Assembly (NCBI GenBank): GCA_016869595.1
Contig: VGDT01000001.1
Span: 62,001 to 126,000 of the forward strand
Reading direction: 5' to 3'
Length of the DNA stretch: 64,000 nucleotides
Source of the DNA: Alphaproteobacteria bacterium
GTDB taxonomy: Bacteria > Pseudomonadota > Alphaproteobacteria > Rhizobiales > Beijerinckiaceae
Below are positions 16,463-62,919 of the stretch, one piece after another. A program made the position numbers and the translations under genes. Position 1 is the first letter of the stretch. Each line of letters starts with the position of its first letter. The notes beneath the pieces were generated by a model that ran no database searches, had not been told where the DNA came from, and saw only the letters and a program-made list of their open reading frames with translations.

Positions 16463-17110
16463 TTAAACCGCCCTTGTTCCTGGCGTGTCGCCCTTCTGAT
16501 AGGCCGTGCCGAACACATAGTCCCACCAGATCGCGTGGACGCCGAAGCCTTTCTCGGCGTCGCGGAAATGATGCAGCATGTGCAGGCGCTTCACCATGCG
16601 GCCAAAGTCCGTCTTCGGCTGGCCATGATGCGTCCAGTAATGCACGCAATCATAGATCACATAGCCACTGATGAAGCCGGCAAGCACCGGCCAGGCGAAT
16701 GTCGCGCCGAAGATCAGCCGGGCGCATAAGAGCGCGATCAGCATGATCGGTCCCGAGAGCAGCGGCGGCATGACGAGCCGCAGCGGATCATTGGGATAGA
16801 TGTGATGCACGCCGTGAATGAGAAACTGAAAACGCGGCCCGAGCCCGAAGGGCAGCGCAAACACCGTATGGAAGAGATAGCGGTGGCCGAAATATTCGGT
16901 GAGCGTCCAGCCGAGATAACCGATCACGAGGCCAACTAAGACGAGCGTCAGGCTGTTGAGCGTGAGCGAATAGATCAACAGTCCGAGAATGATCGGGCAA
17001 TAGATGATCACTGGCGTCAAATGATGCACACGGGAGAGCTTATCGAGGAGATCGCTCTCGAAAAGGCGGGGCGAAGCGTCGAGCGCCTGGGCTTTTGCGT
17101 CCTGCGTCAT
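16463..17110 (-). CDS. FA2H/Scs7-like fatty acid hydroxylase (sterol desaturase superfamily)
   Basis: A 215-residue integral membrane di-iron oxygenase. The histidine clusters are complete: HRYLFH (76-81), HGVHH (99-103), HYWTHH (157-162) and HMLHH (177-181). There are about four membrane helices, for example near residues 34-60. The HGVHHIYPNDPLRLVMPP stretch closely resembles the FA2H/Scs7 enzymes that 2-hydroxylate the N-acyl chain of ceramides, more than sterol C4 oxidases or carotenoid hydroxylases. It is the last gene of a four-gene operon, 3 bases after the DES1-like gene. By family and context it probably hydroxylates the fatty-acyl part of a sphingolipid; a free fatty acid or another lipid is possible. 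Confidence 0.82.
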   Translation of the reverse strand: MTQDAKAQALDASPRLFESDLLDKLSRVHHLTPVIIYCPIILGLLIYSLTLNSLTLVLVGLVIGYLGWTLTEYFGHRYLFHTVFALPFGLGPRFQFLIHGVHHIYPNDPLRLVMPPLLSGPIMLIALLCARLIFGATFAWPVLAGFISGYVIYDCVHYWTHHGQPKTDFGRMVKRLHMLHHFRDAEKGFGVHAIWWDYVFGTAYQKGDTPGTRAV

Positions 17111-17113
17111 GAC

Positions 17114-18106
17114 TTACTCCGCCGGCGCTATAACGGGCGCTTCGCGCGCGGCCTGCGTCACATTTTCCGACCGCGTCCCGAGCGAATAGGTCGGATCGAA
17201 GATGAATGTCACGAGCAGCGCGAACCAGGAGCGATGGCAACGCAGATCGTCGTAGAACTCGGGCGCCATCGCCTTTAAGTCCGGCAAACGGTTCCACGGA
17301 ATCTCGTGAAAATCGTGATGCTCGTTGTGATAGCCGATGTTGAGCGCAAGCGTGTTGAGCGGGCCGTAGTAATCGAAGGTCCCCTGGTCGGGGCCGAAGG
17401 CGAAATGCTCTTGCAGCCAGCGTGCGCTCAGAGGATGCAGGCCGCCGACGGAGAACCAGAAGGAGAAGAAGAGATAGAGCAGGGCGTTCGGCCCGAATGC
17501 CCAGAGCACGAAGAGATCGAAAAGGGCGATGACGCCGATATTGATATAGGTCCAGGTTCCCCAGATCGGCACCGTGCCCTTCAGGCGCGACAGTCGCGCA
17601 AGCTGAATGGCCGGGAAGAAGAAGAGCCAGACCGCCTTGCGCCATGCGCTATTGCCGACCCATTCGACCTCCCAGCGGCTCGGGATGTCGGCGTCATAGT
17701 CATAGGCCGACAAATGCGAATGATGCTTGATGTGGTAGCAGCGAAACCCCATCGCCGTCGGAAAGGCATTGGGAAGGTCGGCAAGGATCGCCGTCCACTT
17801 ATTGGCGAGCGGACTGTCGAAGACGCAATTGTGAATCGCGTCATGGATGATGACGAAATTGGCGTGATTGGCGAAAGCGCCGACGCAGATCGCCATCAAG
17901 AGCGACAGCCACCAATAGGAGAGGCCGAGCGAACCCAAAATCGCGGCAATCACGAGCTGACCGACGAAAATCGCCGCCGTGATCTTGAAGGTCACGGGGT
18001 CCTTGCCGAAAAGCTCGCGCACCTGCGGATATTTCTCGAGGATCAGCTTGCGCCGCTCGACATGCGTGCGGTCGGCGCCATTGGCGGTGACTGAAATGCC
18101 GTTCAT
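17114..18106 (-). CDS. DES1-like sphingolipid Delta4-desaturase
   Basis: A 330-residue membrane fatty acid desaturase that looks like eukaryotic dihydroceramide Delta4-desaturase. It has the three histidine boxes HDAIH (88-92), HIKHH (125-129) and HNEHH (260-264). It also has DES1-specific surroundings: RRKLILEKYPQV near the N-terminus, LHPLSARWLQEHF, and FDYYGPLNTLALNIGYHNEHHDF followed by an IP..LP segment. Membrane helices lie about 40-60, 62-85 and 185-222. DES1 oxidises dihydroceramide to ceramide with oxygen; that substrate is inferred here from similarity and from the adjacent SPT-like gene. Its ATG overlaps the TGA of the preceding gene (ATGA), indicating translational coupling. Confidence 0.85.
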   Translation of the reverse strand: MNGISVTANGADRTHVERRKLILEKYPQVRELFGKDPVTFKITAAIFVGQLVIAAILGSLGLSYWWLSLLMAICVGAFANHANFVIIHDAIHNCVFDSPLANKWTAILADLPNAFPTAMGFRCYHIKHHSHLSAYDYDADIPSRWEVEWVGNSAWRKAVWLFFFPAIQLARLSRLKGTVPIWGTWTYINIGVIALFDLFVLWAFGPNALLYLFFSFWFSVGGLHPLSARWLQEHFAFGPDQGTFDYYGPLNTLALNIGYHNEHHDFHEIPWNRLPDLKAMAPEFYDDLRCHRSWFALLVTFIFDPTYSLGTRSENVTQAAREAPVIAPAE

Positions 18107-19317
18107 GACGTTGCATCCTGTAGCTGAGTTGCCCTGACGCCGTCGCGCATACGCATCGCCTCGTCGCCGCCGCCGACCGTGAGGCGCTTTTCATAAATGC
18201 GATGAATCTTGTCGACCTTGCCGCCGAACATTTCAATCGGCCGCCGCATGTCGGCGTTGCTCTCCAATACCCAACCGGCTTCGAGATGCGGGACGGCGAA
18301 CTTGGCCCAGCGCCGCCGCATCTCCTCAATCAGCGCGAGAAAAATGGCGCCGCCGGTCGCGCTTTTCTGCAGCGTCTTTCGCGTGCCAAGCAGCAGCAGC
18401 CGCGCCGATTTGAACTGATGCGAGCGGTATCGCAAAATCGCGCGCAGCCAGCCGAAGGGAAAAAGCCGGCCGTTAAGATCAGCGAGAATCTCGTTCAGAT
18501 TGGGAAGCGCAATCGCGAAAGATTGCGGCGCGCCGTCAAGCTCGACGACAATGCCGAAATCCTCGGTCACGAGAAATTGCAGCGCGTCGGCGTCTGAATC
18601 GAATTCTTCCTTGGTGAAGGGCACGAAACCCCAATTGCCGCTCCAGCCGTCGTTGAACAGTTCGGCCATCAGAGCGGTCTCGCCCTGCTTCAAGGCTTTC
18701 ATGTTCAATGGCCTGAGCTTTAAACGATTGCGCCATTCACGGCGCGTCGAAATGCGCGCCGGCTTTTCGACTTCGTCGCTTGAGATTTCGAAGCGATAGG
18801 ACAGGAGGTCTTGCGCCTTTTCATAGCCGAGCGCTTCGATATGGCGCGACAGATAGGGCGGATGCCAGGGCATGAGGAACATCGGCGTGGCGGCAAAGCC
18901 GTCGACGAGAAGCCCGCATTCCCTGTTGATCGAAGGCGAGAAGGGTCCGTTGATCCGCTCAGCGCCCCTTGCGCGCAGCCAGTCCTCGGCGGCCTGCGTC
19001 AACGCGCGAACGACCTCGACATCGTCGATGGCGTCAAGTGTTCCGAACTGTGCGCTGGAGGCGCCGACTGGGGTGACGCCGGGCTTATAGACCTGCGCCA
19101 TGATGCGCCCGACCCATTGGCCGTCGCGGCGGGCGAGAAATTTTTGCTCTTCGACGAATTTGTAGTGCGGGTTGAGCTTATGCGCGAAGACCGTCCAACA
19201 CTGGACGTCCAGCGGCGGCGCAAAGCCTGGCGCGCCGGCATAGAGCAGCCGCGGCAGCTTGCAAAAGGTCGCAAAGCGCGAAAGGCCGTCGACCGGAAGA
19301 ATCTCGATCCGCGCCAT
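18103..19317 (-). CDS. GNAT-like acyltransferase, candidate bacterial ceramide synthase
   Basis: A 404-residue soluble protein with no signal peptide, of a proteobacterial family with an acyl-CoA N-acyltransferase fold. Family-typical pieces are FCKLPRLLYAGAPGFAPPL near the N-terminus, RINGPFSPSINRECGLLVDGF, a KLRPLNMKALKQGE segment and LLGTRKTLQKSATGGAIFLALIEE near the C-terminus. From memory, a GNAT-like protein of this general kind is the reported ceramide synthase of Caulobacter. Between SPT-like and DES1-like genes, N-acylation of sphinganine is the natural inference. The start at 19317 is an ATG; a TTG two codons upstream is possible. The stop overlaps the desaturase start by 4 bases. 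Confidence 0.72.
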   Translation of the reverse strand: MARIEILPVDGLSRFATFCKLPRLLYAGAPGFAPPLDVQCWTVFAHKLNPHYKFVEEQKFLARRDGQWVGRIMAQVYKPGVTPVGASSAQFGTLDAIDDVEVVRALTQAAEDWLRARGAERINGPFSPSINRECGLLVDGFAATPMFLMPWHPPYLSRHIEALGYEKAQDLLSYRFEISSDEVEKPARISTRREWRNRLKLRPLNMKALKQGETALMAELFNDGWSGNWGFVPFTKEEFDSDADALQFLVTEDFGIVVELDGAPQSFAIALPNLNEILADLNGRLFPFGWLRAILRYRSHQFKSARLLLLGTRKTLQKSATGGAIFLALIEEMRRRWAKFAVPHLEAGWVLESNADMRRPIEMFGGKVDKIHRIYEKRLTVGGGDEAMRMRDGVRATQLQDATS

Positions 19318-19381
19318 ATACAAGTCCTAGCGGCAGCCGGCCATTAATCGAAAGCGTCAAAGTGACGCGGAGAGGAGAGTC

Positions 19382-20620
19382 TTATCCGCCCGCCATCGCC
19401 GCGGCGACGATCTGATGCGCCTCTTCCGTCACCGGCGGCATGTCGCGCAGCGTCTGGATGACGCCCCTAATCTCCGCTTCGCTATGATTGGCGGAGAAGA
19501 AGAAGCGCAGTCTCGGCCCATCCTTCGGCACGCCGATGCGCACTACCGGCGGCACGTAATAGCCGTTCTCCAGCAAATGTTGCGACGCCCACATCGTCTC
19601 GACGTCGCTCGAGAACAAGATCGGCACGACGCCGCGGCCGATCGCCGGTCCGGTGGAGAAACCCGCCTCATGCGCGACCGTGCGGAAGAGCTCGGCGTTG
19701 CTCGCGAGCTTGGCGATGCGCCAGGTCTCCTCCTGCATCAACCGCAGGGCGGTGCGCGCGGCGGCGAGAATGACCGGCGACAGGCCGACGCTGTAGACGA
19801 AGCCCGGCAGCGTATAGCGGAACCAGTCGATGACCTGCTTCTTCCCGCAAACATAGCCGCCGCAGGACGCGAGAGTCTTCGACATGGTGCCGACGATGAG
19901 GTCGATGCGCGCCGGATCGACGCCCTGATGTTCGGCGAGGCCGCGGCCGGTCTCGCCGAGCACGCCGAGCGAATGCGCTTCGTCGACGAGCAGCCAGACT
20001 TTGTATTTCTCTTTGATCGCGAGGAGACGCGGCAGGTCGGCAGTGTCGCCGTCCATGCTGTAGACGCCTTCGACAACGATCAGAACGTTGCGGTATTCTT
20101 CGCGGTGGCGCGCCAGCAGATGATCGAGATGATCGAAGTCGTTGTGGCGGAATTTGACGACATGCGCCGGCGCGCCGTCGGCGCCGGCGACAATGCTGTT
20201 ATGGGCGAGCTCGTCGATGAAGATCGCGTCGTTCTTGCCGCTCATCAGCCAAGCGATCGTCGTGACATTGGAGAGATAACCCGAGACGAGCGTCAGCGCG
20301 CTCTCCATGCCAAGAAATTCGGCGATTTCCGCCTCGAAAGGCTTGTGCGTGGTGCGTTCGCCGCCAACGAGCCGTGAGGCCAAGGCGCCGATGCCGAGCC
20401 CGTCGATTTCGCGCTTCGCCTCTTCCCGGATCCGCGGATGATTCGCGAGGCCGAGATAGTCGTAGTTCGCGAAGCTGACGAAATGCTTGCCTTGCGCCTC
20501 GAATTCGGCCCGCAGCTTGTCGATCTGGGCGAAAAACGGATCGCTGAACTCCAGCAAGGCGTTGCCAGCGAAACGGAACCGCCTTGCCGCGTAGTCCTCT
20601 AAGCTCTTATGCTTCGTCAC
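19382..20620 (-). CDS. spt: Serine palmitoyltransferase-like alpha-oxoamine synthase
   Basis: A 412-residue PLP enzyme of the alpha-oxoamine synthase family (SPT, KBL, AONS, ALAS). The PLP lysine is K248 in GTMSKTLASCGG. DEAHS (213-217) binds the cofactor ring, H140 in ELAHNS stacks on it, and FANYDYLGLANHP is the family's N-terminal glycine-acyl site. The family condenses an amino acid with an acyl thioester and loses CO2. Sequence alone does not fix the substrate. Three downstream genes for ceramide-type chemistry make serine plus a long-chain acyl-ACP or acyl-CoA, giving 3-ketosphinganine, the best reading. GTG start; first gene of the operon, divergent from ccmA, 64 bases before the acyltransferase gene. 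Confidence 0.8.
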   Translation of the reverse strand: MTKHKSLEDYAARRFRFAGNALLEFSDPFFAQIDKLRAEFEAQGKHFVSFANYDYLGLANHPRIREEAKREIDGLGIGALASRLVGGERTTHKPFEAEIAEFLGMESALTLVSGYLSNVTTIAWLMSGKNDAIFIDELAHNSIVAGADGAPAHVVKFRHNDFDHLDHLLARHREEYRNVLIVVEGVYSMDGDTADLPRLLAIKEKYKVWLLVDEAHSLGVLGETGRGLAEHQGVDPARIDLIVGTMSKTLASCGGYVCGKKQVIDWFRYTLPGFVYSVGLSPVILAAARTALRLMQEETWRIAKLASNAELFRTVAHEAGFSTGPAIGRGVVPILFSSDVETMWASQHLLENGYYVPPVVRIGVPKDGPRLRFFFSANHSEAEIRGVIQTLRDMPPVTEEAHQIVAAAMAGG

Positions 20621-56950: not shown

Positions 56951-57272
56951 TTTCGCCGTCGCCCTCCCTTGTTTCGGGCGGCGTTTTCGCATGAAGCGCT
57001 CCGCCGGGCCACTGCAAATCCGCCAAGAGCGGAGCGTGAAATCCGCCAAGAGCGGAGCGGGCTTTATTTTCGGGGCCAAACGCCTTAACCAGTGCCGATC
57101 GCGCTCAAGGGCGAATTAACAGAGCGCTGGGGCGGAATAGCCGGAATATGAAGCGGGCGGTCCGGCCATGCGGCCCGAATTTCGAGGCGTCGGATCGGCG
57201 CCGCCGCGTCAATGCGCCGCGCGCGCGTCAGTTGTCGGACAGGCGGCGAAGACCCCTGAAACGGAGGAACTC

Positions 57273-57548
57273 GTGACAGACAATGTTCAGGAAAAGAGCC
57301 AGCTCGTCGACGAGATCGTCGAGGTGATCGCGGCGGAAGGCATGGTCGACAAAAGCAAGATCACTCCTGACGCGACGATTGAGAGCCTCGACCTCAAATC
57401 CGTGGACATCGTTATGATTCTCACGGCGCTTGAGGAGAAGTTCAACGTCTACATCCCGATGGACGGGTCGCTGCAAGAAGCCAAAGACGTCAAGAGCTTG
57501 ATCGAGGCGATCGCAGACCACATTCAGAAAGAACGCGAGAAGCAGTAA
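57273..57548 (+). CDS. Dedicated acyl carrier protein
   Basis: A 91-residue acidic ACP. The 4'-phosphopantetheine serine is Ser43 in IESLDLKSVDIVMIL; the usual DSL is KSV here, which suggests a specialised ACP distinct from housekeeping AcpP. Helix 3 reads EEKFNVYIPMDGSLQEAKDV. The GTG start at 57273 has GGAGG about 5 bases upstream. It is the first gene of a seven-gene operon, with the ketosynthase start directly after its stop. It is also not AcpXL-like in sequence. Inference: it carries the acyl chain built by the following enzymes. Confidence 0.9.
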   Translation: MTDNVQEKSQLVDEIVEVIAAEGMVDKSKITPDATIESLDLKSVDIVMILTALEEKFNVYIPMDGSLQEAKDVKSLIEAIADHIQKEREKQ

Positions 57549-58784
57549 ATGGCGTTCTCGCGAGCGCGCCCCGAGGGGCGGCGCGTCGTTATTTCCGGCA
57601 TGGGCGCGGTTTGCGCCTCGGGCGTCAGCGCGCAAAAGCTCTGGGAAGCTGCGCGCGACGGCGTAGCGCAGATTCGTCCGCTCAAGACTGAACGCCCTTA
57701 TGACGGCCGCATCAAAATTGCGGCTCAGGTGCCGGATTTCGTTCCGGCCGAATACATCGAGCCCGACGTTCTTCCCTTCTGCGATCCCTTTACGCAGTTT
57801 TGCATCGTCGCGGCCGACGAAGCGATGGCGCAGGCAGGATTTGAACGCAAAGATATCGCTGGGCCAAAGACCGCTGTGATCATCGGCTCCGGCATCGGCG
57901 GCATGACCACGATCGAGGACGGCATCTATCGATATTATGTCGAAGGAACGCGCCCCGAGATGTTGAGCGTCCCGAAGCTCATCCCCAGCGCAGCGCCCGC
58001 GACGATAGGCATGCGTTATTCCTGCCTTGGTCCGACATTCGCAGTCGGCAGCGCCTGCTCGTCGGCGTCGCAGGCGATCGGACTCGGCATGCAGATGATC
58101 AGACAGGGCCTTGTGGACAAGGCGATCGTCGGCGGCGCCGAGGCTTGCGTCATCAATGCGACGATCCGCGCGTGGGAAGGCCTTCGCGTGATGACCCCGA
58201 ATTTGTGCCGCCCCTTCTCCAAAGGCCGCAACGGCATGTCGCTTGGCGAAGGCGCGGCGGTTTTTATTCTTGAAACCGAAGAATCGGCCCGTGCGCGCGG
58301 CCACGAGCCTCTATGTGAACTTGCCGGCTACGGCACAACCAGCGACGCCAAGGATCCGGTGCGGCCCGACCTTGAAGGCGCGTCGAACTCGATCGCCTTG
58401 GCGCTCGAGGATGCAGGAATGGAACCGCGGGAGATTCACTACATAAACGCGCATGGCACCGCGACTCACGCCAATGACATCACCGAAGCCGAAGCCATTC
58501 TGCGCGTGTTTGGCGACTATGGACGGGTCGTGCCGGTCTCGTCGACAAAGCCCATCCACGGCCATGCGCTTGGCGCGAGCGGCGGGCTGGAGCTCGCGAT
58601 CACCATCAACGCGCTGCGCGAACAGATCGCGCCCCCCACCATCAACTTCCTGGAGCCGGACCCCAAGTGCCCGCTTGACGTTGTTCCGAATGTCGCGCGT
58701 AAGCATAAGATCGACGCCGCCATGTCGAATTCATTCGCTTTCGGGGGGATCAACGCCGTGTTGATCGTGCGCCATGCCGCTTGA
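57549..58784 (+). CDS. Beta-ketoacyl-ACP synthase (KAS I/II type)
   Basis: A 411-residue condensing enzyme that elongates acyl-ACP with malonyl-ACP. The catalytic triad is Cys170 (VGSACSSASQ), His302 (NAHGTATHAND) and His339 (KPIHGHALGASGG). GEGAAVFILETEESARARG is the usual FabF segment. It starts at the base after the ACP stop, and its last 11 bases overlap the next gene. A single ketosynthase without a chain-length factor argues against an aryl-polyene type system. Inference: chain extension on the adjacent ACP. Confidence 0.93.
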   Translation: MAFSRARPEGRRVVISGMGAVCASGVSAQKLWEAARDGVAQIRPLKTERPYDGRIKIAAQVPDFVPAEYIEPDVLPFCDPFTQFCIVAADEAMAQAGFERKDIAGPKTAVIIGSGIGGMTTIEDGIYRYYVEGTRPEMLSVPKLIPSAAPATIGMRYSCLGPTFAVGSACSSASQAIGLGMQMIRQGLVDKAIVGGAEACVINATIRAWEGLRVMTPNLCRPFSKGRNGMSLGEGAAVFILETEESARARGHEPLCELAGYGTTSDAKDPVRPDLEGASNSIALALEDAGMEPREIHYINAHGTATHANDITEAEAILRVFGDYGRVVPVSSTKPIHGHALGASGGLELAITINALREQIAPPTINFLEPDPKCPLDVVPNVARKHKIDAAMSNSFAFGGINAVLIVRHAA

Positions 58785-59169
58785 GCCGCCGCTCGCGCTC
58801 GGGCCTTTTCGGCTGCGCGTCGATCCAGCGCGCGCTGCAGCTTATGCGCGCGAAACCGGAGGGGACGTGGAGACCGTTCCGCTCGCCTATCCTGCGATCT
58901 GGCTCGCCGAGCCCTCGCTTTTTTCGGTCGTACGCGACCTCTGCGATGATCTCGATGTCGTGCCGGTGCATGAGTCTCAGAGCTTCTCCTATGACGCGCC
59001 TCTCGTTGCCGGAGAGAGCTATGATTTTAGCGTCACTGTAAGCCGTGAGGAAACGCCGCCGCGTCTGACGATGGTGGCGACGGTCGCAACGTCAGACGGA
59101 GAGACTTGCGCTCGAGTCGAAACAATGTTGCGGCTCGTGCCGCGCGCTGGATTTGGGAGCGTGTCGTGA
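58774..59169 (+). CDS. Hot-dog-fold protein, MaoC N-terminal/FAS1-type dehydratase half
   Basis: A 131-residue protein of the N-terminal MaoC-like (PF13452) kind. A PLAYPAIWLAEPSLF helix-loop stands in the place of the hot-dog helix, followed by the VHESQSFSYDAPLVAGESYDFSVTV and RLTMVATVAT strands. It lacks the catalytic Asp-His motif that the next gene carries, so the two probably pair as a heterodimeric hydratase/dehydratase. It overlaps the ketosynthase by 11 bases, and its stop overlaps the next start. Confidence 0.8.
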   Translation: MPLEPPLALGPFRLRVDPARAAAYARETGGDVETVPLAYPAIWLAEPSLFSVVRDLCDDLDVVPVHESQSFSYDAPLVAGESYDFSVTVSREETPPRLTMVATVATSDGETCARVETMLRLVPRAGFGSVS

Positions 59170-59570
59170 GCGGCGACATCAAAGTCGGCGACACAATTCC
59201 CGAGACCGTCATCGGCCCGTTCGACGCGCCTTCGCTCGCGCGCTACGCCGAAGTTTCGGGGGACGCCAATCCGCTGCATCTCGATGATGCGGTGGCGGCG
59301 GCGATCGGTTTTCCCGCGCCGCCGGTGCACGGGATGAAGCTTCTTGCCGCCTTTGAACCGATGCTGAGAGCGTGGCGCGACGATCTCATCATCTCTTCGC
59401 TTGCCGGAAGGTTTGTGCAACCGATTCTGCGCGGCGACACTGTTAGGCTGTCGGGGCGCGTTTTACGAGCGACGGATGATGAGATTTTTGTTCGTCTGAC
59501 CGCTTATGGCGCTGCGCGAGCTCCGGGCATCATTGGCGAAGCGACTCTGCGGCCAAAGGTGGGCGCATGA
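59166..59570 (+). CDS. MaoC-like (R)-specific hydratase/dehydratase
   Basis: A 134-residue hot-dog protein with the hydratase-2 motif: YAEVSGDANPLHLDDAVAAA contains the catalytic Asp33 and His38, followed by GFPAPPVHGM. It should dehydrate or hydrate a 3-hydroxyacyl thioester at C2-C3. The GTG start at 59166 overlaps the stop of the preceding half-protein, consistent with a two-subunit enzyme. The SDR gene follows after 21 bases. No enoyl reductase is in the operon. Confidence 0.9.
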   Translation: MSGDIKVGDTIPETVIGPFDAPSLARYAEVSGDANPLHLDDAVAAAIGFPAPPVHGMKLLAAFEPMLRAWRDDLIISSLAGRFVQPILRGDTVRLSGRVLRATDDEIFVRLTAYGAARAPGIIGEATLRPKVGA

Positions 59571-59591
59571 ACTTCCGGACGGGGCTTTCAC

Positions 59592-60452
59592 ATGGCTAAG
59601 AGCGCCGTTCGTGTCTTCATCACGGGGGCCTCCAGCGGCATTGGACGCGCGTTGGCGGTCGCATACGCCCGCGAAGGCGCGAGCCTTGTCTTGCTCGGCC
59701 GCGACGCTGAGCGGCTCGAAGCCGCAGCGCGCGCTTGTCTCGCGGCCGGCGCGCAAGAGGCGGAGACTCATATCGCCGACGTTCGCGATCGCGAATCCAT
59801 GGCGCGGATCATTCAATCTGCGCATGAAAAACGCCCGATCGACATTCTCGTCGCAAACGCCGGGGTCGCGACGGGCCTTTCGCCCGGCCAACTCCTCGAA
59901 ACCCCCGAGGCGGTCCGGGCGATGCTCAAGATCAACGTCGAGGGAGTCTTCAACACCGTCGAGCCTGCGATCCTGCCGATGTGCGCCCGAAAGAGCGGCA
60001 GGATCGCCATCGTCGGATCGATGGCCGGCGTGCGCGCGCTGCCCCATTCGCCGGCCTATTGTGCGGCGAAGGCGTGCGTTCACATGTGGGCGGACAGCCT
60101 GCGCGGCCAACTCGCGGCCTACGGCGTGCATGTCGCGCTGATCGTGCCCGGTTATGTGAAAACGCCAATGTCGGCGCGCACCATCGTGAAGACGCCCTTT
60201 TCGGCACGCACCATCGTAAAGACGTCCATGTCGGCGGGCGCCGAATCCTGGCAGCCCGGCGCCATGTCGGACGAGCGCGCCGCTCTGATCATCAAGCGCG
60301 GGCTGGAGCGCCGGCGTCCGGTGATCGCTTTCCCGCTCTTCATGTATGCGGCGATGCGCTTCTTCGCTCTGTTGCCGCCCGCTGTCGTCGATGGCATCAT
60401 GCGCCAGTTTCCTGCAGAAGTGCCGGAGACGCCGGAGCGAGAGATCTCGTGA
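59592..60452 (+). CDS. Short-chain dehydrogenase/reductase, candidate ketosphinganine or 3-ketoacyl reductase
   Basis: A 286-residue classical SDR. The NAD(P) site is TGASSGIGRALA, then NAG (89-91), with catalytic Ser143, Tyr156 and Lys160 (YCAAK). The C-terminal part has a hydrophobic membrane-association stretch (PLFMYAAMRFFALLPPAVV), as in eukaryotic 3-ketodihydrosphingosine reductase and related SDRs. Residues 189-218 are three tandem 10-residue repeats placed after the usual PGYVKTPMS substrate loop. In context it could reduce a 3-ketoacyl-ACP or 3-ketosphinganine. Its TGA overlaps the GTG of the glycosyltransferase gene. Confidence 0.88.
   Translation: MAKSAVRVFITGASSGIGRALAVAYAREGASLVLLGRDAERLEAAARACLAAGAQEAETHIADVRDRESMARIIQSAHEKRPIDILVANAGVATGLSPGQLLETPEAVRAMLKINVEGVFNTVEPAILPMCARKSGRIAIVGSMAGVRALPHSPAYCAAKACVHMWADSLRGQLAAYGVHVALIVPGYVKTPMSARTIVKTPFSARTIVKTSMSAGAESWQPGAMSDERAALIIKRGLERRRPVIAFPLFMYAAMRFFALLPPAVVDGIMRQFPAEVPETPEREIS
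60156..60245 (+). repeat. Three tandem 30-bp repeats inside the SDR gene
   Basis: The 30-base unit encodes VKTPMSARTI, then VKTPFSARTI, then a diverged VKTSMSAGAE. The reading frame is kept. The first unit corresponds to the normal SDR motif PG.V.T.M, so the other two are likely duplications. Confidence 0.88.
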
Positions 60453-61609
60453 CGGCCCTAGCTATTCTCGCCTGGGTCGCGGGCGTCTACTGGATCATCG
60501 CCTTCGTTTTGCTTGTCGTCTCAATCGCGGCGACCATCGCACAACCCTGGCTCGCGGTCCGCCGCGCCACGCGACGAGATCAGCCGCCAGTTTCCGTGGT
60601 TCTCCCGGTCAAGCTGATTGACGACCAATTTGATCGCACGCAAGAGTCTGCGCTTACGCAGCACTATCGCGATTTCGATGTGACGGTGTCGTCAACCGAC
60701 CTCGATGCGCCAGCCGTCCAGCGCATGCGCGCCATTCTTGCACGTCATCCGACCGTGCCTTCGCGGGTCGTTCTTTCGACCGCGAAATTCGCGGTCAGTC
60801 CGAAGGTCGATAATCTTTACGCGCCCTTCATACAGGCGTCACACGATGTCATCTTCATGAAGGACGCGAATGTGCTGCTTGAGCCGGATGCGTTGGCGCA
60901 ACACATGCGGGAACTGACGGACGATGTGGGGCTCGTCTGCGCCATCCCATATTGCGCGCGGCTCGAAAATTTTGCCGCTCATGTCGAGGCGGCGATCATC
61001 AACGGACCGCATGCGCGCATGCTGTTTCTCGCCTCGGCGTTAGGGCAGGGGCACGGCGTGGGGAAAATTATGCTGTTCAGGCGATCGGATTTCCTGCGTG
61101 CGGGCGGCTTCGACGCGATTTCCCATACGGTGGGGGAAGACAACGCCTTGGCGAAGGCGATGCGGCGGATTGGCAAGAGGCCGGTCTTTTCCCACAGGCC
61201 TGTCCGGCAGGAGCTTGGCGTTCGCAACTTTGCGGATGTTTATCATCGGCAATTGCGTTGGAGCGTCATTCGCCGAAACGACGAACTCATTTCCTTTCTC
61301 GCCGAGCCGATATGCCAAGCGCTTCCGGCGGTTATCGCTTCGGCCCTCGCGGCGCCTCTCGTCGGCCTCGCGCCTCTCGTCGCGGCGTCGGCGACGCTTA
61401 TTGTGTGGTTTACGCTCGAAACATTGCTTTCCATGGCCAAAGGATGGCAGTTATCTTGGGCTGCGCCTGCGGTCTTTGTGGTCCGCGAGGCGACGATGCT
61501 GGCGGTCTGGTTGAACGCCTGGGTCACCGACCGCGTGGTCTGGGCAAAGAGCAGCGTGAACGCGCGCACGGGGGCAAAACCCTCGCCGGTTCCGCATGAA
61601 GAAGGATAG
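60449..61609 (+). CDS. GT21 family glycosyltransferase, ceramide glucosyltransferase-like
   Basis: A 386-residue membrane glycosyltransferase. An N-terminal helix (about 5-31) anchors a GT-A domain. The GT21 signature is complete: Asp84 (SSTD), Asp139 (IFMKDANVLLEP), Asp231 (TVGEDNALAKAM) and QLRW (268-271). The PKVDNLYAPF and GKIMLFRRSDFL segments align by eye with ceramide glucosyltransferase. C-terminal helices follow about residue 290. HpnI of hopanoid synthesis is a related alternative, but no hopanoid genes are here. It would transfer a sugar from a nucleotide sugar to a lipid acceptor at the inner face of the membrane. GTG start overlapping the SDR stop. Confidence 0.87.
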   Translation: MTALAILAWVAGVYWIIAFVLLVVSIAATIAQPWLAVRRATRRDQPPVSVVLPVKLIDDQFDRTQESALTQHYRDFDVTVSSTDLDAPAVQRMRAILARHPTVPSRVVLSTAKFAVSPKVDNLYAPFIQASHDVIFMKDANVLLEPDALAQHMRELTDDVGLVCAIPYCARLENFAAHVEAAIINGPHARMLFLASALGQGHGVGKIMLFRRSDFLRAGGFDAISHTVGEDNALAKAMRRIGKRPVFSHRPVRQELGVRNFADVYHRQLRWSVIRRNDELISFLAEPICQALPAVIASALAAPLVGLAPLVAASATLIVWFTLETLLSMAKGWQLSWAAPAVFVVREATMLAVWLNAWVTDRVVWAKSSVNARTGAKPSPVPHEEG

Positions 61610-61614
61610 GCCGT

Positions 61615-62919
61615 TTGGTGCTGGGGCTTTTTCAATTCATCTTCGATGCGATCACGATTGTCTGCGCTTCGATCATGGTTGTAATCGGTATTGGCTATTT
61701 GATCGTCATCGGCCGTTTCTGTTACGACCAGCTGCGTGGCGTGCGAGATTCGGAAGCGCCCGCGACGCCTGACTCGCAGTTGCCGCGGGTCCTGCTGCAA
61801 ATTCCGGTATTCAACGAGCCGCTCGTAACCGAACAATCGTTGCGCTGCGTCGCGCTTCTCGACTGGCCCAAAGATAAGCTGCGCATTCAGCTTCTCGACG
61901 ATTCGACTGACGAGACGAGCGCGCGCGCCGATGTGGTGGCGGAAGAACTTCGCGCCGGCGGCGCCGTTATCGACCATGTGCGGCGGTCCGACCGCTCGGG
62001 ATTCAAAGCCGGCGCTTGCGCGCACGGCCTCACGATCACGGACGAACCCTTCGTCGCGATGCTCGACGCCGACTTCCGTCCGCCGCCCAATTGGCTGAAG
62101 CGGACGGTTCCGCTTTTTCTCACCGACGATCACGTCGGATTCGTGCAGTCACGCTGCGAGTTCCAGAACTTCGAGAAGAACTGGCTGACGCGTGCGCAGG
62201 GTCTCGTGCAGGACGGACATTACCTCGTCGAGCAGCGCTCGCGGGCACATGCGGGCTGGCTCTTTCAATTCAACGGCACGGGCGGCATCTGGCGGCGCGC
62301 CACGATCGACGACGCCGGCGGCTGGTCGGATTATTCGCTGTGCGAGGACCTCGATCTTACCGTTCGCGCGGCGCTCAATGGGTGGCATGGGCTGTTTGTG
62401 TCGGAGCCGCCGATTCCGGGTCAGGTGCCGGAGGGAATTCGCGATTTCAGACGTCAACAGAGGCGCTGGTCAAATGGTTTCGTGCAGGTCGCGCAAAGGA
62501 CCGTCTTGCCGATCTGGCGTTCGCCATGGAGTCTGACGCGTCGCGTGATGGCGATCTCCCTTATCGCCCATCAGATTTTCTTCCCGACAGCCGCCGTCGG
62601 GTTCATCGCGCTTGTTCTTGGCGCGATCCTGCACGGGTCTCTCGCGCCCTACGCGGACATGTTGGAGATTATCGGGATCATGACCCTGCTGGTGGCGCTC
62701 GGCGTCACGCTTCCGCCATACCTGGCGTTAAGGCGGGGGACCATCGTCGACTATGTTAAGACGGTCGCGTCCATTCCGCCGCTGATGATCTATCTCGCCT
62801 TCGCCAATGGCGCGAAGATTTTGCAGACTTTGCGCGGACGGAAATCGACATTTAAGCGCACGCCCAAGCTCGACCATGAAGCTGCGGCGCAAGAGCCAAT
62901 TGACGCTAAAGTAGAATGA
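61615..62919 (+). CDS. Membrane glycosyltransferase family 2 (cellulose synthase-like)
   Basis: A 434-residue processive-type GT2. An N-terminal helix (about 5-30) precedes the GT-A domain with IQLLDDSTDETS, AMLDADFRPP, the acceptor-site CEDLDLT and the QQRRWSNGF motif. Three or four C-terminal helices follow. This arrangement is shared with glucan and mannan synthases and with several lipid glycosyltransferases. As last gene of the operon, it could add a second sugar to the lipid made by the GT21 enzyme. The TTG at 61615 or GTG at 61618 is the start, 5-8 bases after the preceding stop. Confidence 0.87.
   Translation: MVLGLFQFIFDAITIVCASIMVVIGIGYLIVIGRFCYDQLRGVRDSEAPATPDSQLPRVLLQIPVFNEPLVTEQSLRCVALLDWPKDKLRIQLLDDSTDETSARADVVAEELRAGGAVIDHVRRSDRSGFKAGACAHGLTITDEPFVAMLDADFRPPPNWLKRTVPLFLTDDHVGFVQSRCEFQNFEKNWLTRAQGLVQDGHYLVEQRSRAHAGWLFQFNGTGGIWRRATIDDAGGWSDYSLCEDLDLTVRAALNGWHGLFVSEPPIPGQVPEGIRDFRRQQRRWSNGFVQVAQRTVLPIWRSPWSLTRRVMAISLIAHQIFFPTAAVGFIALVLGAILHGSLAPYADMLEIIGIMTLLVALGVTLPPYLALRRGTIVDYVKTVASIPPLMIYLAFANGAKILQTLRGRKSTFKRTPKLDHEAAAQEPIDAKVE

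Follow-up and report, generated by a model that had tools for sequence, protein, structure and literature searches.

Does an alphaproteobacterium build ceramides carrying a Delta4 double bond and an extra hydroxyl, a chemistry mostly ascribed to animals, plants and fungi? The question is raised by a four-gene locus in a 64,000-nucleotide stretch of Beijerinckiaceae DNA (contig VGDT01000001.1, positions 62,001 to 126,000), referred to here as the window. The locus encodes an alpha-oxoamine synthase resembling serine palmitoyltransferase (SPT), a GNAT protein of the bacterial ceramide synthase (bCerS) type, a desaturase of the DES1 family (DES) and a hydroxylase resembling FA2H and yeast Scs7. 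It is a real, conserved operon for what would be a new form of sphingolipid synthesis in bacteria, one that draws on the DES1 and FA2H families; its product is a prediction. Family membership, conserved linkage, an active-site signature and a distribution shared with a second gene cluster were observed, and we consider it likely that the operon makes a ceramide-type sphingolipid in Methylocystis by the steps proposed below. A ceramide-type lipid operon, as proposed in the original prediction, is by far the best reading, since all four family calls passed their tests and the genes travel together.

The host genome (3.28 Mb in 152 contigs) is Methylocystis-like; among the matches listed, the desaturase has its closest named counterparts chiefly in Methylocystis strains and metagenome-assembled genomes (MAGs), at 94-98% identity. 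As predicted, the four open reading frames (ORFs) are co-oriented on the minus strand at 16463-20620. The spacings had been given as 64, -4 and 3 bases. Those between GNAT and DES (-4) and between DES and hydroxylase (3) are correct, while the SPT-GNAT gap is 58 bases from the TTG start of the GNAT and reaches 64 only from an in-frame ATG at 19317, two codons further on. The four genes are probably read as one transcript.

To place the operon among its relatives, we used the best 80 named loci by DES match, which do not amount to a census. Thirty-six of them (L029-L064) belong to the Beijerinckiaceae/Methylocystaceae, the family group. SPT and GNAT stand beside DES in 34/34 family-group loci with upstream sequence, L041 and L061 beginning at DES, and the three genes are co-oriented in 33 of these, DES being reversed in L056. 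The hydroxylase is nearby in 21/36 loci, once on the opposite strand (L047), and all four genes are present in 20/36. At 45-98% protein identity the set recurs across the related loci, and it is not a chance arrangement. Cultured carriers of the operon include Methylocystis strain B8, M. rosea SV97 and M. silviterrae FS (loci L029, L030 and L033), and Methylosinus sporium has it too (L039).

Genome-wide counts gave the same picture, with the provision that the sampled genomes are related and the counts do not represent independent events. Among 199 genomes of the family, 52 have DES and 55 have GNAT, every DES genome being one of the 55; the two genes are neighbours on one strand in 48/52. All ten same-genus genomes listed have both. 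Chance neighbourhood was rejected on the linkage in 34/34 loci and 48/52 family genomes. Across 297 genomes of the order, the Lipid_DES family PF08557 was matched at E 0.001 in 16, of which 12 score at least 29 bits, and all 12 have the GNAT, against a background of 70/297. One of the four weaker genomes (G037) has GNAT and SPT; the other three have neither. We put aside the matches in these three genomes (f42; 22-24 bits), which probably represent a different kind of desaturase, given that no SPT-range protein and no GNAT accompany them. Taken together, the family and order counts show DES in the company of GNAT and SPT, and GNAT often without DES.

The desaturase exceeds the cut-offs of both FA_desaturase (PF00487, 82.4 bits, cut-off 29.7) and Lipid_DES (36.9 bits, cut-off 23), and its His boxes are retained in the alignment. 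PF08557 was matched in 0/14 control genomes. A PDB sequence search with the desaturase returned no relative at E 1, and the desaturase tree comprises bacterial members only. These domain matches bear out the DES1-family call, the activity being predicted.

The hydroxylase matches FA_hydroxylase (PF04116) at 59.1 bits (cut-off 31) and aligns with yeast Scs7 (PDB 4zr1) over 190 residues at E 1.3e-23. The two share the His clusters HRxLFH, HGxHH, HxxxHH and HxxHH and an RLVMPP stretch. The first rank of Scs7 is not specific by itself, because it is the sole FA-hydroxylase entry among five PDB matches. Pfam gave only PF04116 and no cytochrome b5 domain in this protein. This absence is not decisive, since an Arabidopsis homolog without the domain still hydroxylates sphingolipid fatty acids, according to a title cited in PMC6460317. 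The FA2H/Scs7-like assignment stands on PF04116 and the His clusters, with a predicted activity.

The GNAT is less readily recognized from its own sequence, which matched no Pfam family and, in a PDB sequence search, nothing at E 1. Pfam recognizes a verrucomicrobial homolog near another DES as a GNAT (40.2 bits), and the window protein matches that homolog at E 5e-54. A model predicted with AlphaFold2 from an alignment of 27 sequences (mean predicted local distance difference test score, 83.8) has tandem GNATs as its top PDB matches (E 1.6e-12), with N-myristoyl transferases lower. We also surveyed 16 alphaproteobacterial loci of 17-20 kb around canonical-type SPT genes, out of 30 such loci found. 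A homolog of the window GNAT is present in 11/16; in the eight loci whose end does not truncate it, identity is 36-40% across almost the entire protein. Homology to the GNATs near canonical SPT genes, together with the modelled tandem fold, supports the predicted bCerS type.

The SPT-like protein belongs to Aminotran_1_2 (PF00155, 164.5 bits, cut-off 19.7), and its best PDB match is a Sphingobacterium SPT (E 2e-62). The host genome contains no match to the SPT model NF047599 at E 1e-130, the level of canonical SPTs. Its three other superfamily members, scored as matched stretches rather than whole proteins, comprise an ALAS over cut-off, a bioF-best protein and a glycine C-acetyltransferase-best protein, the last two under cut-off. 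We compared 12 operon proteins (the window and 11 of the 36 related loci) and seven from other phyla with canonical SPTs and with five BioF/KBL/ALAS types. A Ser before the lysine that binds pyridoxal phosphate (GT-x-S-K) and a Ser after DEAH (DEAHS) occur in 12/12 operon, 7/7 verrucomicrobial/acidobacterial and 34/34 canonical proteins, and in 0/5 of the BioF/KBL/ALAS types. GTFSKS is termed an SPT-characteristic motif in PMC10196870. A 48-row tree, from which L104 (a fragment) and 10/30 canonical alphaproteobacterial SPTs were left out, places the operon, verrucomicrobial/acidobacterial and canonical SPTs in three clades opposite the five BioF/KBL/ALAS types (support 95/90), with long branches between the clades. 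A KBL, BioF or ALAS identity was rejected, as the genome has its own member of each type and the protein has the SPT signature, although on the tree alone the first two would stand. The SPT assignment rests on this signature and on gene context.

A second cluster lies 37 kb from the operon, on the plus strand at 57168-62919, and was found with the L045 proteins as queries (Table 1). Its GT2 glycosyltransferase, taken as the marker, occurs near the operon in 12/36 relatives; a 29% match in L035 was not counted as a second cluster. The marker is present in 14/14 examined operon genomes, compared with 0/6 family genomes that yielded neither DES nor GNAT. Because the second cluster adjoins the operon in relatives and shares its distribution, the pathway is probably larger than four genes.

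Table 1. Coordinates in the window of the operon and second-cluster genes, with the supporting matches and predicted roles.
Feature	Position	Strand	Match, prediction or remark
FA2H/Scs7-like hydroxylase	16463-17110	-	215 aa, ATG start; no cytochrome b5 domain; predicted N-acyl-chain 2-hydroxylation
DES1-family sphingolipid desaturase	17114-18106	-	330 aa, ATG start; predicted Delta4 desaturation
bCerS-type GNAT	18103-19323	-	406 aa, TTG start; predicted N-acylation
SPT-like alpha-oxoamine synthase	19382-20620	-	412 aa, GTG start; predicted to condense serine with an acyl thioester
Acyl carrier protein (ACP)	57168-57548	+	PF00550, 26.6 bits; ORF of 126 aa, true start probably inside; first ORF of second cluster
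FabF-like beta-ketoacyl-ACP synthase (KAS)	57549-58784	+	PF00109 and PF02801; below fabF cut-off; 61% to the copy beside SPT/GNAT/DES in L045
131-aa ORF	58774-59169	+	No Pfam/NCBIfam match at E 0.001; putative dehydratase partner from position
MaoC/HadB-like dehydratase	59106-59570	+	PF01575, 52.9 bits; 54% to L045 copy; start uncertain
Short-chain dehydrogenase/reductase (SDR)	59592-60452	+	PF00106, 159 bits; 51% to L045 copy; candidate 3-ketosphinganine/3-ketoceramide reductase or FabG-type chain reductase
GT21-family glycosyltransferase	59981-61609	+	PF13506, 153.6 bits; HpnI model 157.9/310 bits; real start probably just past SDR stop
GT2 membrane glycosyltransferase	61615-62919	+	PF13632, 85.4 bits; second-cluster marker

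From these data we infer a pathway, including its substrates, step order, regiochemistry, reductase and head group. To judge from its signature, the SPT-like enzyme would form a 3-keto base by condensing an acyl thioester with an amino acid, for which L-serine is most likely, and the GNAT, as a homolog of bacterial ceramide synthase, would add the N-acyl chain. A reductase other than CerR, for which the SDR of the second cluster is the candidate, would reduce the 3-keto group. By family, Delta4 desaturation is then expected of the DES1-type enzyme, and hydroxylation of the acyl chain at C2 of the FA2H/Scs7-like one. The second cluster is a probable source of a special acyl chain and, as the operon's neighbours in relatives suggest, of a sugar head group. 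On the best reading of the sequence, the likely product is predicted to be a glycosylated, 2-hydroxy, Delta4-unsaturated ceramide.

Several findings weigh against this reading. The SPT-like protein scores under the NCBIfam SPT cut-offs (NF047599, 293.6/500 bits; NF047600, 278.1/640; NF047603, 208.9/670), as it does under those of the bioF, KBL and ALAS models, and its best-scoring NCBIfam model is bioF (342.7 bits, cut-off 426); a canonical SPT likewise scores 338 bits against the bioF model, which makes this last result less worrying. Approximately unbiased (AU) tests do not reject KBL (p 0.119) or BioF (p 0.331) as the partner of the operon clade; the tree alone does not settle the protein's place, and the active site is more telling. 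There, the equivalent of N52 (residue 53 of the window protein), which in Sphingobacterium multivorum SPT contacts the serine hydroxyl via water (PMC10196870), is Tyr in 12/12 operon proteins. The hydroxylase was not found nearby in 15/36 family-group loci, DES and GNAT lie apart in 4/52 family genomes (G716, G753, G871 and G894), and of the 70 order-sample genomes with GNAT, 58 fall outside the 12 that have a clear DES. No CerR ortholog was found in the host genome, where the best BLAST match reaches 57 bits, compared with 166-199 bits between three canonical CerRs. Finally, the accessible text of a lipidomics study of Methylosinus trichosporium OB3b (PMC9239053) mentions no ceramide, its only "sphingo" being an added standard; the weight of this silence depends on OB3b carrying the operon. 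The original SPT call is sustained by the motif signature and gene context, and it is qualified by the scores below curated cut-offs and by the KBL and BioF groupings that the AU tests leave standing.

The reductase step has another possible explanation. The SDR may serve fatty acid chain building only, the lipid then remaining a 3-ketoceramide or being reduced by an enzyme encoded elsewhere. This is a serious possibility, to which we give somewhat less than even credence, and it is otherwise compatible with the ceramide pathway. The KAS, MaoC, ACP and SDR genes together resemble a chain-building module, and the SDR reaches no specific reductase family: none of the 25 NCBIfam models listed was reached at cut-off, and the 60 PDB matches listed are general SDRs only. 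The four operon genes alone lack a 3-keto reductase. On the other hand, the second cluster adjoins the operon in relatives. An HMMER search of the host genome with one canonical CerR gave at best 78.2 bits at 29% identity. A CerR hidden elsewhere in the genome was rejected, only generic weak matches being found, so another reductase is needed. Because no CerR ortholog was found, the SDR at 59592-60452 is our candidate 3-keto reductase.

The amino acid substrate could also differ from L-serine, given the N52-to-Tyr replacement. An alpha-oxoamine synthase using Ala, Gly, homoserine or cysteate would make the product a non-standard amide lipid, for example a 1-deoxyceramide, with the later enzymes acting as predicted. 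We regard this as unlikely, though worth keeping in view. Ala, Gly and homoserine are substrates of S. multivorum SPT as well (PMC10196870), and the PDB relatives of the window protein include a cysteate acyltransferase at E 1e-44, a more distant match than the SPT at 2e-62. The Tyr is also found in 2/34 canonical SPTs and in 7/7 verrucomicrobial/acidobacterial SPT-like proteins. The equivalents of Ser81, His138, Asp210, His213 and Ser185 are retained in the operon proteins, and the glycosyltransferases adjoining the operon in relatives suggest a C1 hydroxyl; both favour L-serine.

Eukaryotic DES2 is bifunctional, and Delta4-desaturase and C4-hydroxylase activities share a fold and His boxes; to our knowledge, PF08557 does not separate the two. 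The DES1-family enzyme could on this ground be a C4-hydroxylase yielding a phytoceramide in place of the Delta4-unsaturated ceramide, which we hold to be quite improbable, as no sequence feature of the window enzyme favours C4-hydroxylation. That the SPT-like protein is of BioF/KBL type and no sphingolipid is made, the desaturase and hydroxylase acting on another membrane lipid, draws on the bioF score, the AU tests and an FA-hydroxylase-superfamily protein proposed as a hopanoid desaturase in the methanotroph Methylovulum (PMC6460317), and is very hard to reconcile with the BioF-like and KBL-like genes that the genome already has, the SPT signature in 12/12 proteins and the constant company of a bCerS-type GNAT and DES.

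Outside the family group, the remaining 44 of the best 80 DES loci have an SPT-like gene near DES in 24 cases, a GNAT in 18, a hydroxylase in 26 and all four genes in 17. In 17 loci (Verrucomicrobiota and the acidobacterial MAG L090), DES is followed downstream by SPT, a CDP-alcohol phosphotransferase and GNAT, and in most of them the hydroxylase comes in between. The order DES, hydroxylase, SPT, CDP-alcohol phosphotransferase, GNAT is seen in L066, L067, L068, L070, L090 and similar loci, with an MMPL-family transporter just upstream in L066. Such an arrangement points to a phosphosphingolipid whose ceramide would carry the same modifications. Fifteen Bacteroidota loci among the best 80 have DES without the other three genes nearby. 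When ten of these Bacteroidota genomes were scanned with NF047599, eight scored 347-388 bits, one scored 300 and one gave nothing at E 1e-60; these scores are only suggestive, because the cut-off of the model is 500. Overall, the loci with a DES-family gene come from four bacterial phyla, and those with an FA2H-like gene from three.

Other arrangements were seen within the Alphaproteobacteria. The genome-wide SPT scan, whose 24 handles correspond to 23 genomes (L105 = G703 = G160), showed that 9/9 genomes of a Phreatobacter-type genus also carry an SPT scoring 458-472 bits with NF047599, together with GNAT. In the Phreatobacter-type loci L105, L023-L025, L027 and L028, DES has no SPT in its neighbourhood, the canonical-range SPT and the GNAT lying elsewhere in all nine genomes examined. 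An alphaproteobacterial MAG outside the family group (L104:3-1864) has a truncated SPT-like gene, 41% identical, directly before DES. In a MAG labelled USC-alpha (L053), SPT-GNAT-DES adjoins KAS, MaoC, SDR and GT2 genes, with no hydroxylase nearby.

The Caulobacter ceramide/phosphosphingolipid set comprises aasR, cerR, acpR, spt and cerS, at CC_1165-CC_1162 and CC_1154 (PMC11324152). Three canonical loci viewed gene by gene have the order acyl-ACP synthetase, CerR, ACP, SPT, the names other than SPT having been assigned by inspection and from the Caulobacter gene order in that source. The original prediction held that Caulobacter-type loci do not include both a desaturase and a hydroxylase. 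The desaturase half of this statement is confirmed, a DES match above 60 bits occurring in 0/16 canonical SPT loci. The hydroxylase half is incomplete: a distant relative of the window hydroxylase is found in 10/16 of these loci, with 27-29% identity over the longer alignments of three compared, and CC_0202 was suggested as the Caulobacter acyl hydroxylase in a report cited by PMC11324152. Relatives of 254-267 aa stand beside a bCerS-type GNAT at L152:8256-9050, L146:2031-2834 and L158:18081-18845. The acyl-ACP synthetase gene aasR is not among the genes beside the operon, a statement limited to that neighbourhood, as no genome-wide search was made.

In the literature searched, from which most subscription journals fall outside coverage, neither a report of sphingolipids in methanotrophs (Methylocystis, Methylosinus) nor one of bacterial ceramide loci with DES1/FA2H enzymes surfaced. 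In their accessible text, PMC6460317 names a sphingolipid desaturase paper as background only, and PMC12322946 excludes its single ceramide as methane-related. The lipids reported for OB3b are phosphatidylglycerol and phosphatidylethanolamine with its methylated forms in standard medium, and monogalactosyldiacylglycerol, glucuronic acid diacylglycerol and ornithine lipid at low phosphate (PMC9239053). The silence on ceramide there may reflect its amount or the growth condition, or a lipid that was overlooked. A study of the Black Sea (PMC11334938) describes an SPT-like clade broader than the known SPTs, defined by nearby bCerS and CerR; this clade is a precedent for divergent SPT-like proteins.

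Bacterial sphingolipid loci are already known. The presence of DES1- and FA2H-type genes next to SPT and ceramide synthase genes predicts an animal-like ceramide in methane oxidizers. We tentatively propose, as a conjecture that may well need revision, that a second bacterial route operates in type II methanotrophs and their relatives, including the USC-alpha MAG. With a separate SPT lineage, a bCerS, a non-CerR reductase and DES1/FA2H enzymes, it would yield glycosylceramides of the sphingosine type (Delta4-unsaturated), which in Methylocystis would also be 2-hydroxylated. If this is true, ceramide-modifying enzymes considered "eukaryotic" would be common among bacteria, and it could be tested where eukaryotic DES1 and FA2H originated. 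The locus bears on whether these two enzymes have bacterial roots. It also suggests that a new reductase acts where CerR is missing, makes a bacterial Delta4-desaturase testable by deletion of a single gene and could provide a lipid biomarker for Methylocystis and relatives.

Compared with known enzymes, the SPT-like protein shares GT-x-S-K, DEAHS and the catalytic His and Asp with the Sphingobacterium and sphingomonad SPTs (PDB 8guh and 2jg2), and differs from them in its Tyr for N52 and its scores below curated cut-offs. The desaturase has the Lipid_DES and FA_desaturase domains, over cut-off, and the His boxes of eukaryotic DES1 (DEGS1); unlike DES1, it is encoded in a bacterial operon, and its activity is predicted. 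The hydroxylase has the His clusters and RLVMPP stretch of the yeast Scs7 and FA2H ceramide 2-hydroxylases in a shorter protein of 215 aa, in which no cytochrome b5 domain was found and for which activity is likewise predicted. The clusters of Verrucomicrobiota and L090 bring together the same four families in a different gene order and carry a phospho-head-group gene instead of glycosyltransferases; identity to the window proteins is about 35% for SPT and about 32% for GNAT. In common with the Caulobacter-type locus, the window has SPT-type and bCerS-type GNAT genes near each other and an ACP in the wider set, and the Caulobacter-type loci often contain a distant relative of its hydroxylase. 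In contrast to those loci, it combines an SPT-like protein outside the curated families, with no CerR ortholog found, with glycosyltransferases in a linked cluster, a DES1-family desaturase and an FA2H-like hydroxylase.

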